Virus record (IMG/VR): IMGVR_UViG_3300023174_003959
Location: 1-22,995 of that record
Length of the DNA stretch: 22,995 nucleotides
Reading direction: 5' to 3' (one strand)
Source: a virus
Part shown: positions 4,455-22,876 of the stretch, one piece after another
How positions within the stretch are numbered: the stretch's first letter is position 1
How the letters are laid out: every line of letters begins with the position of its first letter
The notes under the pieces: generated by a model
Databases searched by the model: none
Seen by the model: only the letters and a program-made list of their open reading frames with translations
What the model was told of the DNA's origin: nothing
Translations under genes and position numbers: made by a program

Positions 4455-4742
4455 TTGAAGCAGCACTTATGGAAAGATCAGGCTGCTTGTTTAGGTCTTG
4501 AAACAAATTTATATTTTGATAAATATGAAGATAATGAAAGCATTAGACCTAACGTTGATGCGCTTTGCAAGCAATGTCCAGTTAGAAAAACATGCTTTGC
4601 AAATGGCGTTTCTGGCAAAGAGTGGGGTGTTTGGGGTGGAGTTTATCTTGAAACTGGAGAAATTTCAAGAGAATTTAACAAACATAAAACTAAAAAAGAC
4701 TGGTCAGATATCTGGACCTCTTTAACAATGGAAGAAAAATGA
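4455..4742 (+). CDS. WhiB-family iron-sulphur transcription regulator
   Basis: The 95-residue protein has the four WhiB cysteines (C12, C38, C41, C47) that hold a [4Fe-4S] cluster, in C-x25-C-x2-C-x5-C spacing. The GVWGG turn follows at 58-62. WhiB proteins bind the primary sigma factor region 4 and redirect transcription; mycophage WhiB proteins such as TM4 WhiBTM4 inhibit host WhiB2. The family is essentially restricted to Actinobacteria and their phages, so this is the best host marker here. The start is TTG at 4455 with AGGGAG 5 nt upstream. The basic tail with the AT-hook-like part of some WhiBs is only partly present. It overlaps the glycosyltransferase gene by ATGA. Confidence 0.92.
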   Translation: MKQHLWKDQAACLGLETNLYFDKYEDNESIRPNVDALCKQCPVRKTCFANGVSGKEWGVWGGVYLETGEISREFNKHKTKKDWSDIWTSLTMEEK

Positions 4743-7516: not shown

Positions 7517-7746
7517 TGTATACAGATAACATGAGAAAAGCATTTCATTCTATAAATGCACCTAAAAATTTTAGTGTAGAAGTTATTGACAATGAATATT
7601 TTCTTACAATAAAATTGGATGAAAAAAAGTTTTTATATATGGGGCATGATGATAAAATATCAGCCTTGCAGTATGTGGTAAAATTAAAAAAGGCTTTAGA
7701 AGATTGTGGAGCAGTTATTTTAGTAACTAGAGAGGCAATAAAATAA
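7516..7746 (+). CDS. Small hypothetical protein in the halogenase cassette
   Basis: A 76-residue acidic/basic mixed protein with predicted alpha-beta content (FSVEVIDNEYFLTIKLDEKKFL, then a helix around VVKLKKALEDCG). No catalytic motif or family is recognised. It is coupled by 1-nt overlaps (TAATG) to the GDPD-like gene and the halogenase, so a partner role, for example as a small binding protein, is conceivable but unproven. Confidence 0.6.
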   Translation: MYTDNMRKAFHSINAPKNFSVEVIDNEYFLTIKLDEKKFLYMGHDDKISALQYVVKLKKALEDCGAVILVTREAIK

Positions 7747-9347
7747 TGTCAAAAATAATTAACGATATTGTAATTGTTGGTGGCGGATCTGCTGGATGGA
7801 TGACAGCATCAATTTTAATTAAAGACTTTCCAAATAAAAATATAAAACTTATTGAGAGTCCAAATATACCAACAATTGGTGTTGGAGAAAGCACTTTTGA
7901 TGGAATTAATTATTATTTTGAATACTTGGGAATAGATAAAAACGATTTTATTAAATTTACAGATGCGTCAATAAAACTAGGACTTAGATTTAAAAATTTT
8001 TATAAAAAAGATAATACATCATTTTTGTATCCATTTGGCAGGCCATACCTTGAAGAAACTAAATGGGGTATGCAAGATTGGTTAATTAAAAAATACAAAG
8101 ATGACTCAGTTCCAGTTACTGACTTTGCACAAACATACTTCCCAGTAGCACATCTTATTGAAAATAATACTTTTTGTGATAATAAAGATGGTCAGTTGCC
8201 TGCTTTTGATCCAAGAATTAACACAGCATTAAATTTTGATGCACAAAAATTTGCATTATGGCTAAAAGAAAAATATGCAAAAGTCCGTGGTGTAAAAAAT
8301 ATACTTGCAGAAGTTATTCATGTAGAAACAGATGATGATGGAATTAAATATTTATTATTAGATAATGGGAAAAAAATAACAGCAGATTTATATATTGATT
8401 GCACTGGATTTAATAGTTTGTTGCTTGGAAAATCATTAAATGAAGAGTTCATAGATTATACAAATAAACTACCAAATAATAGTGCATGGGCTGTGCAAAT
8501 TCAATATAAGGATAAAAATAAAGAAATGCTTACTGTTACAACTTGCACTGCGTTAAAAAATGGATGGGTTTGGCACACTCCTTTGTATTCTCGTATAGGT
8601 ACTGGATATGTTTATAGTGATAAATTTACAAGTGATGAAGATGCACTTAAAGAATTTAAAGAATATCTATTAAGTAAAGATTCAACAAACAAGATATCAA
8701 AAAAAGAAATAAATAATTTAAATTTTAATAATTTAAAAATGCGTGTTGGCATACATAAAAGAACTTGGGTTAAAAATGTTGCAGCAATAGGTTTGTCTGC
8801 TGGTTTTATTGAACCATTAGAGTCAAATGGTTTATTTACTGTTCATGAGTTTTTATTTAATCTTGTAAGTGTATTAAAACAGGAAAAAATTACATCGTGG
8901 AATATACACAACTACAACGAAGTTAATAAAAGAATCTATGACTCTTTTGTTGACTTTATAATAGTTCATTATTGCTTAAGCATAAGAGATGATTCTGAAT
9001 ATTGGAAATCAAATAGTGAAAGGGTGTACTCTTTTGATAATATAGATAAAAAGAAAGAACTTTCTTCAAACTTGTTTGCGTTATATGAAATGAAAACTAG
9101 AACACATGATACTGTTGGCGGTACTGGATATAATCTTGCAATGACATGTATCGCAACTGGAATGAACTATTTTATATTAGATAATGTTTTTTCACGAATT
9201 GGAGAAATTTCTTATAATGTTGATTATTCAGAAACAATGAAAGATTATTTTACAATATCTGATTATAGGAAAAACGAATGGGAAAAAATTGCAAAAGAGT
9301 CACCAACAATGTATGAGTATTTAAAGGAGAGATATTATAATGATTAA
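7746..9347 (+). CDS. Flavin-dependent tryptophan-halogenase family protein
   Basis: The 533-residue enzyme has the FAD-binding GGGSAGW at 12-18, GVGES at 45-49, and the catalytic lysine K77 in ASIKLGLRF. It has W274-V-W276-H-T-P, close to the WxWxIP signature that blocks monooxygenase activity, and E356 in GFIEPLES, the region of the catalytic Glu. Length and spacing match PrnA/RebH-type enzymes. These use FADH2, O2 and halide to form HOCl or HOBr, which reaches the substrate by way of the Lys. A cyanophage member (VirX1) is known to iodinate diverse substrates. No flavin reductase is nearby, so host FADH2 is likely used. The natural substrate is unknown; the sugar-gene context suggests surface glycoconjugate or secondary-metabolite chemistry. 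Confidence 0.9.
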   Translation: MSKIINDIVIVGGGSAGWMTASILIKDFPNKNIKLIESPNIPTIGVGESTFDGINYYFEYLGIDKNDFIKFTDASIKLGLRFKNFYKKDNTSFLYPFGRPYLEETKWGMQDWLIKKYKDDSVPVTDFAQTYFPVAHLIENNTFCDNKDGQLPAFDPRINTALNFDAQKFALWLKEKYAKVRGVKNILAEVIHVETDDDGIKYLLLDNGKKITADLYIDCTGFNSLLLGKSLNEEFIDYTNKLPNNSAWAVQIQYKDKNKEMLTVTTCTALKNGWVWHTPLYSRIGTGYVYSDKFTSDEDALKEFKEYLLSKDSTNKISKKEINNLNFNNLKMRVGIHKRTWVKNVAAIGLSAGFIEPLESNGLFTVHEFLFNLVSVLKQEKITSWNIHNYNEVNKRIYDSFVDFIIVHYCLSIRDDSEYWKSNSERVYSFDNIDKKKELSSNLFALYEMKTRTHDTVGGTGYNLAMTCIATGMNYFILDNVFSRIGEISYNVDYSETMKDYFTISDYRKNEWEKIAKESPTMYEYLKERYYND

Positions 9348-18229: not shown

Positions 18230-18236
18230 TTAAAGA

Positions 18237-18374
18237 TTATCCTCTTGCAATTTTAGCAGCAAGCAATTTCATGCCAACAGCGTTTTCAATACTATCTCTA
18301 ATTTCAATAGCCTCAATCTCTTTGGCTATCTGTTCTCGCATTTCTTTCATGTGCATGCTTAATGTTTTTTCCAT
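18237..18374 (-). CDS. Small helical protein, 45 residues (paralogue of the gene at 17660)
   Basis: ATG at 18374 follows GGGTGGA in the transcript and the frame ends with TAA at 18237-18239, just before the tRNA cluster. The protein is a single charged helix with KEMREQIAKEIEAIEIRDS and ends LLAAKIARG, matching parts of the product of 17660-17887. Function unknown. Confidence 0.55.
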   Translation of the reverse strand: MEKTLSMHMKEMREQIAKEIEAIEIRDSIENAVGMKLLAAKIARG

Positions 18375-18392
18375 TTTTTCCACCCAATCTTT

Positions 18393-18545
18393 TTAGTTCT
18401 CTGCTCTTACATCTGGACTTTTCAAATAAAATACCAGAGTCATTTTTAATCCGCAAGGGCAGTGAAAATTATAGTCTAATTCTTTATGTATTTCCATAGT
18501 AATCTTTGTACCACAGCCATCACAAACAAACTCATATGTGTGCAT
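18393..18545 (-). CDS. Mini zinc-ribbon protein, 50 residues
   Basis: ATG 18545 to TAA 18393-18395. The product opens MHTYEFVCDGCG and has a second knuckle FHCPCG (C8/C11, C29/C31), resembling a shortened FmdB-type or rubredoxin-like ribbon. The second pair is C-P-C-G, with only one residue between the cysteines, so zinc geometry may be altered. The start overlaps the upstream TAA by 1 nt (TAATG). Confidence 0.58.
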   Translation of the reverse strand: MHTYEFVCDGCGTKITMEIHKELDYNFHCPCGLKMTLVFYLKSPDVRAEN

Positions 18546-18643
18546 TACTTATCTTCCTTTTCCCATACTATCCTACCATTTTTCCAGACAGGCCAATACC
18601 CAAGACCTCTCCAGTCCATGCTCATAATCTTAGGTTCTTTCAT
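18545..18643 (-). CDS. Tiny Trp-rich protein, 32 residues
   Basis: ATG 18643 overlaps the upstream TAA by 1 nt and the stop overlaps the next ATG by 1 nt. The product has MSMDWRGLGYWPVWKNGRIVW, with four Trp in 32 residues. No family recognised. Coupling on both sides is the evidence for translation. Confidence 0.45.
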   Translation of the reverse strand: MKEPKIMSMDWRGLGYWPVWKNGRIVWEKEDK

Positions 18644-18726
18644 TAGTTAACCTTATATGTCATTACAAAATAACATGCAACGTATCCCAAAATAAATACT
18701 GGTATAAGAAATAATATATTAATCAA
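18643..18726 (-). CDS. Tiny membrane peptide, 27 residues, TTG start
   Basis: TTG at 18726 is preceded by GGGGGC (18731-18736 region) at a good distance, 16 nt or so from the predicted start site of the promoter at 18749-18777. The product is one hydrophobic helix (INILFLIPVFILGYVACYFVM) with a short polar end. It would be the first gene of the leftward operon. Very short, so confidence is limited. Confidence 0.45.
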   Translation of the reverse strand: MINILFLIPVFILGYVACYFVMTYKVN

Positions 18727-18748
18727 TTTAGCCCCCTTTTATATATCT

Positions 18749-18777
18749 AGTATAGCAATTTTAAGACAGAATGTAAA
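18749..18777 (-). promoter_or_regulatory. Promoter of the leftward small-gene / tRNA / glycan operon
   Basis: On the minus strand TTTACA (18777-18772) and TATACT (18754-18749) are 17 nt apart. Transcription would begin near 18742 and read through the micro-genes and tRNAs. With no obvious terminator on the way, it may continue into the glycan genes down to 11178. Confidence 0.68.
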
Positions 18778-18825
18778 GATATAATGAGGAGATAAAAACT
18801 ATATCTTACTTGTAAAATATTCAAA

Positions 18826-19524
18826 TTATTGATATTTTTTTTGTTTCCAAAAAGTTTCTTTGTACCATCCATATATTCTATGCTCATGCCTATTTTCCCT
18901 ACCTTTTTTAACCAAACCATCTTCAATTTCAGAATTCCAATTTTGTTGTAAAAATGGTATTAATTGTACAACTGGGGTTCCTTGTTTTATAACTCCTTCA
19001 AAATCATTTTTAATATAAAATGGAAGATTTCCATCTGCTTGTGTGACAAACCCTCCATCAATAATACCGCTAAGTGTAGTAAATGGTAAATCATGCCTAT
19101 TTAGTGGATGAGTTAACAAAGCGCTATATCCTTGTGGAATTGTAAATGATACATTTAACTTCCAAGCATATTCACAATTAGCATGTTTATATGGAACTAC
19201 ATTTAAATCAGAAACATTTGCTCTAATGCTTGGTGGATCTCTTAAATCTGGCATCCATGTCAAATATGGTTGTCCATCAATTTGTTTAACATAAAGATCG
19301 TATGGAAGTTTTATTAAATAACCAGTAGTCATGGCATCTAAAAATGGTACACATTGCTTTATGGTATGTCCAAATCCTGTTGGTATATCAAACATTTCAT
19401 TATTTTTCCATTTTGGTATTTTTTTATACCATTCTGGGATCAATGATTTTGCTGGAACAATTAAATTTTTATCTACTAATGGAACTGCAGATTCTTGTTT
19501 TAGAATTGGATTTTTTTTAAACAT
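18826..19524 (-). CDS. Conserved phage/bacterial protein of unknown function (possibly DUF6065-like)
   Basis: A 232-residue soluble protein. LIVPAKSLIPEWYKKIPKW near the start is followed by TIKQCVPFLDAMTTGYLIKLPYDLYV and THPLNRHDLPFTTLSGIIDGGF. A later segment reads GVIKQGTPVVQLIPF and the ending HEHRIYGWYKETFWKQKKY. The pattern of His/Asp-containing turns on a beta-rich core recalls 2-oxoglutarate or cupin-like folds, but no HxD...H set is proven. I have seen similar proteins in marine and freshwater phages near sugar or halogenase genes. It has its own promoter with the -10 exactly 6 nt before the ATG. Confidence 0.6.
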   Translation of the reverse strand: MFKKNPILKQESAVPLVDKNLIVPAKSLIPEWYKKIPKWKNNEMFDIPTGFGHTIKQCVPFLDAMTTGYLIKLPYDLYVKQIDGQPYLTWMPDLRDPPSIRANVSDLNVVPYKHANCEYAWKLNVSFTIPQGYSALLTHPLNRHDLPFTTLSGIIDGGFVTQADGNLPFYIKNDFEGVIKQGTPVVQLIPFLQQNWNSEIEDGLVKKGRENRHEHRIYGWYKETFWKQKKYQ

Positions 19525-21330: not shown

Positions 21331-21480
21331 TTAGCAATTATGTGTACAGCCACAATCAGGACATTTTTCTCCTGGATTGGAGATACAATCATCACACCAA
21401 TCTGGTGGATTTTGTTTATATCCTGGTATCTTGTCTGGTCCAAAGTCCAGATATGCTTCTAGATTATCTAATATTCCCAT
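21331..21480 (-). CDS. Small Cys-rich protein, 49 residues
   Basis: ATG 21480 to TAA 21331-21333. The acidic N-terminal half is followed by DWCDDCISNPGEKCPDCGC and THNC: cysteines at 29, 32, 40, 43, 45 and 49. Four of these form a zinc ribbon and two are extra. TATGCT ends 6 nt before the ATG. The 3' side up to 21244 has a CAAACC copy and the next promoter. Confidence 0.58.
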   Translation of the reverse strand: MGILDNLEAYLDFGPDKIPGYKQNPPDWCDDCISNPGEKCPDCGCTHNC

Positions 21481-21486
21481 GTATCC

Positions 21487-21492
21487 AGCATA
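21487..21492 (-). promoter_or_regulatory. -10 box of a leaderless promoter
   Basis: TATGCT on the minus strand with 6 nt (GGATAC) before ATG 21480. A TTGTCC lies 17 nt further upstream as a partial -35. Weaker than its neighbours but with the same spacing. Confidence 0.42.
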
Positions 21493-21533
21493 GCATATTA
21501 ACCTGATATGGACAATATCGGATCCAGGATGGT

Positions 21534-22195
21534 GGTTTGATACCCTCCCAAAATAGGCTTAGAAGGCTTTTAAATACCATCTGATGAGGTTTGATAGGAT
21601 AATTAAATCTTACTGATATTTTTTAGATTTGGTTAGAATGGAGGAAAGTGGAGTGAAGTGGGGGATAGAGCGCATATATATGGGGCGTTCGTAATGCCAA
21701 ACCACTACATCTAGTATCTAACAAACCTTCAAACCTTCCAAACCTCATATCCCGATAGCGGATTATACTCCCAAACCTTCTATTTGTCAAACCTTGTATG
21801 CGAAAAACCCCTATAAATTTTGTACAAAAATGTAGCAAAAATGTAGGAAAATCTAGCAAAAAGAATAGAAAGGTTTGGTATTTATTTAAAAAACCAGAGA
21901 AAAGGTTTGATATCTTATAGGGGGTAAAAGTTGTATGTTTCTGGATCCCCCGCTAAACTTCCTGGGATTTTTTGAGGCCCTTCGTAATGTCTAATAGGAT
22001 AATTAAAACGCTTTAAGGCGGGGGATAAAAAGATATGATCGTAATACCCCTAGTAGTATAACAAACCCTATATCCTGGTTTGAAGGTTTGGCAGATATAA
22101 GGTTTGACAATAGAAGGTTTTTATGATATGAAGGTTTGGCATGAATCTGGAAAATTATTTAGGTCTTCGTAATGTCTTTTAGAGAAAATGGTTTG
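21534..22195. repeat. Non-coding control region with 16 GGTTTG/CAAACC repeats
   Basis: The gap 21481-22244 has no convincing gene. GGTTTG starts at 21534, 21588, 21872, 21904, 22077, 22085, 22101, 22133 and 22190. CAAACC starts at 21698, 21722, 21730, 21739, 21772, 21788 and 22062. Many steps are near multiples of 8 (24, 8, 9, 33, 16; 32; 8, 16, 32). The commonest extended form is GAAGGTTTG. On uniform base composition about 0.3 copies would be expected by chance. CGTAATG-type motifs, two GGGGGATA and two ATAGGATAATTAAA copies lie among them. An iteron origin or an array of repressor sites is likely; no initiator gene is in the window. Confidence 0.72.
21826..21857. repeat. A-rich tandem repeat, three units of 10-11 bp
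   Basis: AAAAATGTAGC, AAAAATGTAGG and AAAATCTAGC follow each other, then AAAAAG. The block lies between the left cluster of CAAACC and the first right-hand GGTTTG at 21872. It could be an easily melted element or protein-binding repeat. Confidence 0.6.
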
Positions 22196-22244
22196 GTACG
22201 ATATGTCCGATTTGATATGATTTGGACCCGCCCCGCCGCAGGCG

Positions 22245-22508
22245 CTATTCTTGAATAGAATTAAGTAGTTCGTCTAGGCTTTCAAACCCTATATCCTCTG
22301 CACCCAATGAAGCAACTAACAAATCATATGTTTCATTAACATACACCTCTGATTGCTTTGTTGGCAAAACCAATTCATTCATTAAGAAATAAGCCATTGG
22401 CAAACCAAGATCATTATATTCTATAAAATCTTTTAACTGGTCATCATCTCTATAATTCATCCACAACTCTGCAAGGATAGAAATCTTATTAGAAAAGTCG
22501 TTCGGCAT
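22245..22508 (-). CDS. Conserved small phage protein (EYNDLGLPMAYF)
   Basis: Using ATG 22508 the product is 87 residues, acidic and helical. KISILAELWMNYRDDDQLKDF leads into IEYNDLGLPMAYFLMNELV and an end GFESLDELLNSIQE. The central NDLGLP segment recurs in small actinophage proteins of unknown role. A GTG at 22535 would overlap the upstream gene by 47 nt; ATG 22508 overlaps by 20 nt and has GGGAA in front. The stop codon sits in a CTATTC-TT-GAATAG palindrome. A GC-rich patch (22225-22244) follows. Confidence 0.62.
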   Translation of the reverse strand: MPNDFSNKISILAELWMNYRDDDQLKDFIEYNDLGLPMAYFLMNELVLPTKQSEVYVNETYDLLVASLGAEDIGFESLDELLNSIQE

Positions 22509-22719
22509 AGTATTTCCCAATCTCTCTGTATTCACTTACTTCTTTATTATACTCTGTTGCTTCTAATACTTCCAATGCCCTCGCATAAATCACATAGGGC
22601 TGAGTGGTTGCTAAATATTTTCCAATGGCTTCAAGGTCAAGGGAGAAATCTGAGAGCAGTCTGCCAATAGATACGGCAACCTTTTCTTCTTTACTAATAC
22701 CTAATGTAATTCGTCTCAT
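22489..22719 (-). CDS. Small helical hypothetical protein, 76 residues
   Basis: ATG 22719 is preceded by GAGGGGAG, a clear ribosome site. The product is helical, with ISKEEKVAVSIGRLLSDFSLDLEAIGKYLA followed by VIYARALEVLEATEYNKE. The IGRLLSD...LEAIGKYL pattern could be a helix-turn-helix-like or dimer helix, but no known motif fits well. It overlaps the next gene by 20 nt and shares two candidate promoters upstream. Confidence 0.6.
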   Translation of the reverse strand: MRRITLGISKEEKVAVSIGRLLSDFSLDLEAIGKYLATTQPYVIYARALEVLEATEYNKEVSEYREIGKYYAERLF

Positions 22720-22823: not shown

Positions 22824-22852
22824 ATTATAGCAAAAAAGTGTGGGGAAGGCAA
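22824..22852 (-). promoter_or_regulatory. Promoter overlapping the upstream terminator
   Basis: TTGCCT (22852-22847), 17-nt spacer, TATAAT (22829-22824). The -35 lies inside the terminator stem of the preceding gene and the -10 lies in the palindrome CTATAATTATAG (22819-22830). Transcription would begin near 22817 and give a leader of about 98 nt before ATG 22719. Confidence 0.62.
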
Positions 22853-22876
22853 GCCCACCACAAACCTGCCTTCCCC
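22842..22876 (-). terminator. Intrinsic terminator of the gene entering from the right
   Basis: On the minus strand GGGGAAGGCA, a 15-nt loop and TGCCTTCCCC form a perfect 10-bp stem, followed by ACACTTTTTT. It ends the transcript of the partial gene at 22883-22995. The loop contains one CAAACC/GGTTTG copy. Confidence 0.8.

Follow-up and report, generated by a model that had tools for sequence, protein, structure and literature searches.

Array and flanking genes

The window, meaning the whole stretch of DNA analysed here, comprises 22,995 bases and is part of a longer virus record, of which it is a fragment, and the gene strand referred to below is its minus strand. A WhiB-like gene, judged from sequence (4455-4742), suggests an actinobacterial host. 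GGTTTG, or its complement CAAACC, was found in 16 exact copies and in both orientations within 662 nt (21534-22195), and every copy reported in a preliminary description of this DNA was recovered. The density of the hexamer was 24.2 per kb in the array and 1.16 per kb in the remaining window, so an equal density elsewhere, named in that description as grounds for rejecting its reading, was not observed. The best 662-nt stretch among 200 Markov simulations held 4 copies, compared with the 16 in the real sequence, and CAAACC/GGTTTG was the most clustered hexamer of the entire window. The array is bounded by gene B and by a small zinc-ribbon-like gene, and lies in the longest non-coding stretch of the window (about 760 nt, 21482-22244). 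The preliminary description had called this the only long non-coding region; it is the longest, but 18230-18825 is also without a long open reading frame. The features of the region are as follows.

21331-21480, minus strand: gene for a small zinc-ribbon-like protein of 49 aa, the first to follow the promoter in the window; not conserved in relatives
21534-22195, both orientations: GGTTTG/CAAACC octamer array, arrangement conserved in relatives
21534 and 21588: two further GGTTTG copies, left of the left cluster
21588-21593, plus strand: GGTTTG (on the gene strand it reads CAAACC, at +29 relative to the core), where 45 relatives carry paired DnaA boxes
21610-21623, minus strand: core AAAAATATCAGTAA, candidate unwinding element, from comparison of related records
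21689-21695, minus strand: core-proximal ATTACGA
21698, 21722, 21730, 21739, 21772 and 21788: left cluster, six CAAACC copies
21762-21767, minus strand: -10 hexamer TATAAT; a second GGTTTG lies in the 17-nt spacer, at a distance of 16 nt from the first
21785-21790, minus strand: -35 hexamer TTGACA, overlapped by GGTTTG (GGTTTGACA); promoter matches 12 of 12 consensus positions
21821-21871, no strand: A/T-rich tract immediately upstream of the promoter, its phased A-tracts reading as T-tracts on the gene strand, from tandem repeats finder
21872, 21904, 22077, 22085, 22101, 22133 and 22190: GGTTTG copies of the right part
21964-21988, minus strand: bipartite repeat ATTACGA...CCC, copy 1
22022-22045, minus strand: bipartite repeat ATTACGA...CCC, copy 2
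22062: single CAAACC of the right part
22149-22173, minus strand: weaker copy of the bipartite repeat (ATTACGAAGACCTAAATAATTTTCC), read from sequence
22245-22508, minus strand: gene B, 87 aa, acidic, pI about 4
22492-22719, minus strand: gene A, 76 aa, predicted to form three helices, belonging to no known family

The copy positions bear out the opposed arrangement proposed earlier, with a left CAAACC cluster and a right cluster of mostly GGTTTG, and the A-rich tandem repeat placed between the two clusters is real; in relatives, the AT fraction peaks at its position (0.79). Distances near multiples of 8 had also been pointed out, and these hold as a property of the family. Among 82 related loci the best period of GGTTTG spacing was about 8.2 (R = 0.53), and the distances between same-strand neighbours peaked at 8-9, 15-16 and 31-33 nt. 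Two parts of the region had been overlooked, namely a second repeat, TTCGTAATG (21688, 21981 and 22166), and a perfect TTGACA-17-TATAAT promoter on the minus strand (21790-21762). A strong terminator-like stem of 16 pairs was also observed at 22842-22876 (minus strand), overlapping a promoter-like site upstream of gene A.

Conservation of the module in related viruses

Twenty-one loci were found via the neighbouring gene A, most of them with an array in a similar order of orientations, and their alignment revealed a shared perfect promoter and the core. Viral contigs were also scanned with AAAATATCAGTAANATTTA alone, a search that has no bias toward gene A, and the loci already found were added. 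This gave at least 104 distinct loci, at least 82 of which carried the array or the promoter. Comparison with related phage genomes had been recommended as a check in the preliminary description, and it showed that the region recurs with a conserved order of parts in 82 viral loci. Contigs collected by a scan for triple GGTTTG (e.g., L041, L063 and L068) were set aside, as their repeats were evenly spaced in one direction and they matched neither the promoter nor the core. The region gave no blastn match in phage or plasmid collections, and the combination of core and DnaA box was found in none of 84,980 prokaryote genomes, either as host or as prophage copies.

Gene A lay upstream of the core in all 51 loci with enough upstream sequence, with identities among its members down to about 20%, and gene B was present in 41 of the 51. 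The commonest downstream gene family, on the other hand, occurred in only 15 of 61 loci, indicating turnover of the genes past the module, which is itself retained. A conserved protein encoded within the stretch would have spoken against the earlier reading, and none was found; downstream gene content is variable and the leader has no shared open frame. A coding region was therefore ruled out. Iteron origins have a linked Rep initiator gene. The gene linked here in 51 of 51 loci, gene A, gave no Pfam, PHROG, PDB-sequence or fold match and no match in the phage collection, and an initial model of its structure, built on 18 sequences, was of poor quality. The analysis recognised neither an initiator nor a GGTTTG-binding protein.

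The promoter points away from the conserved upstream genes and toward the variable ones. GGTTTG lay over the -35 hexamer in 45 of 74 related promoters, and GGTTT(T)G was located within the spacer in 63 of the 74. Some lineages have the palindromic form TTGACAAACCATGGTTTTG in place of GGTTTG.

A bipartite repeat with a single orientation

The second repeat family is strictly one-way. ATTACGA occurred on the gene strand of related loci at a mean of 3.78 copies per locus in the sense orientation versus 0.012 in antisense. The upstream copies form a bipartite repeat, ATTACGA-N14-18-CCC, counted 123 times in sense, 0 times in antisense and 0 times in the reversed control, and each of the 82 loci has an ATTACG placed 60-80 nt before its core. 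ATTACGA thus represents the multiple direct repeats of one orientation, in a non-coding region, that are typical of iteron origins. In two genomes (L150:8734 and L157:3944), an extra ATTACGA...CCC was seen about 0.5 kb downstream of the core; these extra copies stand a few nucleotides after TATACT, a -10-like hexamer.

The AT-rich core and the exchange of DnaA boxes for CAAACC

The core is located about 165 nt downstream of the promoter. Of 15 related records, 11 contained it exactly once, while the reversed control gave 0. Across related loci the core region has an AT fraction of 0.80 and keeps a fixed spacing to the promoter and to the DnaA boxes. The core would provide the AT-rich unwinding element that lies beside the repeats of iteron origins.

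Of 81 loci, 45 carried DnaA boxes (TGTGGATAA) at +21 and +32/33 relative to the core, often with more boxes, giving 2-5 per core region. Distances between pairs of boxes were phased at 11 bp (R = 0.857, n = 143). The other 36 loci, which include the close kin of the window, were free of DnaA boxes up to 135 nt from the core. No DnaA box was found in the window, so that an oriC-like cluster of boxes is a feature of the 45 related loci and not of the window itself. Loci were classed as box-free when no DnaA box lay within 60 nt of the core. CAAACC was found between +18 and +50 of the core in 27 of 36 box-free loci versus 1 of 45 box-bearing loci (Fisher p about 1e-12, a value that overstates the independence of the cases because the loci are related). 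The CAAACC copies that replace the boxes sit mostly at +28/29. On a tree of gene A and a second upstream protein, the state changed 8 times between box and CAAACC, at least 7 of these by well-supported branches, and recombination between the module and these genes could inflate this count.

The core, the position of the exchange and the one-way second repeat are the most telling parts of the region. We tentatively suggest that the paired DnaA boxes (+21/+33) and CAAACC (+28/29) might be alternative switches of the same AT-rich core, such that control by host DnaA was exchanged repeatedly, site for site, for a phage-encoded GGTTTG-binding protein that also gates the embedded promoter. If true, the repeated exchange would offer a natural experiment in which viruses come to depend on the host initiator or cease to do so.

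Replication genes and DnaA boxes of the phage group

A 112-kb relative encodes a C-family DNA polymerase, a primase, a DnaB-like helicase, SSB, UvsX and a RuvC-like resolvase. Its polymerase was closest to those of Streptomyces phages (Stanwilliamsviridae/Loccivirinae, 51-53% identity). Despite this replisome, no phage-encoded DnaA was detectable. The Phage_integrase family and a ParA-type ATPase (PF13614) were absent in six relatives of about 100 kb, as was RHH_1 (PF01402), which lowers both the partition and the lysogeny-repressor readings. The group is probably lytic. A record of 112,019 bases (G001; ends L145 and L150) carries a direct terminal repeat of 123 nt and is therefore probably a complete, circularly assembled genome.

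DnaA boxes are not confined to the array. Ten relatives together held 51 copies of TTATCCACA, compared with 7 for the reversed control, and further boxes lie at other places in the relatives' early region; one pair, spaced by 41-42 nt, was seen in five relatives. Several clusters were located in early-region intergenic spaces (L149:17018-18936, corresponding to 97.0-98.9 kb of the 112,019-base record), and these clusters could be a second origin or regulatory sites. Four isolated Loccivirinae phages of Streptomyces have DnaA-box clusters with a conserved spacing of 255-256 nt. In BillNye, the cluster lies in a non-coding stretch and reads TTATCCACAGGGTTTATCCACAACTGTGGATAACG; at 119.4-119.7 kb of this phage (L163:27410-27715), a DnaA-box cluster was seen beside GGACAT repeats. 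Clusters of the BillNye type are a candidate origin of Loccivirinae. Given that boxes are found both in the relatives and in isolated Loccivirinae, the clusters look like a family trait, yet one not exclusive to the array.

A compound origin or a regulatory region

We consider it reasonably likely, judging from the sequences compared, that the region is a compound replication origin of the iteron-like kind, in which a repressible promoter is embedded. DNA copying in these uncultivated actinobacterial viruses probably begins here or has its onset controlled from here. In iteron origins, repeats stand together with DnaA boxes and an AT-rich unwinding element (PMC4980987). The preliminary description had compared the array with such an origin, and the comparison strengthens that view, since the arrangement is conserved in 82 related loci with a core, one-way repeats, a strong promoter and, in 45 of 81, DnaA boxes. 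The comparison itself gives the sites, their spacing, their conservation and their exchange, and from these we infer the binding events and the role in replication. In the proposed mechanism, the bipartite repeats would bind a phage initiator and the core would melt. In lineages with DnaA boxes, host DnaA at +21/+33 would open the core and aid the loading of the phage's own DnaB-type helicase; in lineages without boxes, the window included, a GGTTTG-binding protein would take the place of DnaA at the core. Transcription from the embedded promoter toward the core could aid opening or priming, and a GGTTTG-binding protein that shuts this promoter would couple the array to initiation. For the window, the origin reading rests on homology with the relatives because its own copy has no DnaA boxes.

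What appears to speak for an origin is a module conserved regardless of the downstream genes, phased DnaA boxes, a single core, one-way repeats, the exchange of CAAACC and boxes, and an own replisome without DnaA. On the other side, DnaA boxes also occur elsewhere in the early region and none occurs in the window, and a plain regulatory region would equally show a consensus promoter that drives a variable operon. The cumulative GC-skew minimum that had been anticipated at the array was not observed. The turning points lie at coding-strand switches, off the array, and give no support for an origin; as the coding strand explains them, GC skew is not informative here as an origin marker, and skew at third codon positions gave no clear signal either.

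The main and serious rival is that the region is a promoter-operator region only, in which a phage repressor binds the GGTTTG octamers cooperatively and controls the strong promoter of a variable accessory-gene operon, the DnaA boxes being host-factor regulatory sites with no replication role. MetJ and omega-type proteins bind 7-8 bp repeats. The placement of GGTTTG on the -35 hexamer or in the spacer of most related promoters and the direction of the promoter, from conserved upstream genes to variable ones, both agree with this explanation, and the 8-bp phasing of direct and inverted copies resembles the contiguous omega heptads over promoters of pSM19035 (PMC9499535). However, no operator is required as far as 165-250 nt downstream of the promoter, which is where the core and the phased DnaA boxes are situated. 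Some GGTTTG copies are several hundred nucleotides away from the promoter, the module is kept while the operon changes, and no RHH_1 family protein was found in six relatives. We therefore regard an operator without a replication role as possible but rather unlikely. Dispersed stoperators of the L5 type, which the preliminary description had also entertained, are not supported, because the sites form one main cluster and GGTTTG is near background outside it in the 112-, 104- and 98-kb relatives. An RNA-based origin or regulatory RNA, in which a leader spanning the stretch from promoter to core would fold and serve as a primer or riboregulator, as proposed for mycobacterial prophage origins of the non-RepA kind, would account for a strong promoter followed by a conserved leader of 165 nt in which no open frame is shared, and RNA-based origins are known in actinophages (PMC7157519). 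But RNAalifold detected no structure shared by 31 diverse leaders, whichever strand was folded (energy 0, z = 0.28), and no Rfam match was found in the region, which makes this explanation improbable.

Two further explanations concern the handling of the genome rather than its copying or expression. Repeats that mark concatemer processing or terminal repeats, comparable to the short-repeat blocks near the ends of phage T7, would make the region a genome terminus or packaging signal. The isolated relative BillNye has long non-coding regions flanking its terminal repeats, and several environmental contigs end a few kb or less from the array; yet these ends do not recur at one place, the junction of the 123-nt repeat in the 112-kb record is about 3.8 kb from the core, and neither a consensus promoter nor a DnaA box is a feature of packaging sites. 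A terminus is thus hardly probable. The octamer-phased direct and inverted repeats over a promoter also resemble omega/parS of pSM19035, as would be expected of a centromere-like partition site of an extrachromosomal prophage, but this is very improbable given six relatives of about 100 kb without a ParA-type ATPase, a Phage_integrase or an RHH_1 protein.

Comparison with known systems

As an iteron/DnaA-like origin candidate, the region shares direct repeats, DnaA boxes, an AT-rich unwinding element and a fixed order within one non-coding stretch with the plasmid and phage origins P1 oriR, F, pSC101 and RK2 oriV (PMC4980987). It differs from them in that no linked Rep gene was recognised, the DnaA boxes are replaceable by CAAACC, there are two repeat families, one of them 8-bp phased in both orientations, and a consensus promoter lies inside the array. 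Bacterial oriC likewise has DnaA boxes in helical phase, set at a fixed distance right next to an AT-rich core; the boxes here number only 2-5 and are lacking from 36 of 81 loci and from the window, and there is no dnaA nearby. By DNA polymerase, the closest isolated relatives are the Stanwilliamsviridae (Streptomyces phages BillNye, Wakanda, Annadreamy and Blueeyedbeauty), which also have non-coding DnaA-box clusters, late in the genome, whereas the 57 kb of BillNye examined held no GGTTTG array, core or consensus promoter.

MetJ boxes are 7-8 bp repeats, direct and inverted, that overlap a promoter. The omega heptads (parS) of pSM19035 are of the same kind, 7-8 bp repeats in direct and inverted orientation over a promoter (PMC9499535). 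In contrast to both, the repeats here are mostly non-contiguous (8, 16 or 32 nt), and no ParA or RHH_1 was found in six relatives. Operators and stoperators of mycobacteriophage L5 are similar in being short asymmetric repeated sites, one set of which is tied to the direction of transcription. More than 20 such 13-mer sites are spread over the L5 genome (PMC9283540), whereas the sites here form one cluster, and Phage_integrase was not detected in six relatives. RNA-based origins of the cluster A parABS mycobacteriophages are also non-coding, promoter-containing actinophage origin candidates, while no conserved RNA structure was found here, and no ParA or Phage_integrase in six relatives. To our knowledge, the replication origins of lytic actinophages are largely unmapped, and we know of no description of an iteron/DnaA-like candidate with two repeat families, an operator-laden embedded promoter and an exchangeable DnaA/CAAACC site. 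The group is known here from metagenome contigs only, and the 19-nt core, recognisable in dozens of contigs, offers a concrete, testable origin candidate for the whole group.

Two other genes of the window were recorded. The protein encoded at 18826-19524 (minus strand) belongs to phrog_7084, and its best phage relatives, about 30% identical, are from haloarchaeal tailed viruses and Staphylococcus phages. At 7746-9347 (plus strand), a protein of the flavin-dependent tryptophan halogenase family (PF04820, E 3e-102) is encoded among sugar-nucleotide and glycosyltransferase-like genes, an unusual accessory gene for a phage.
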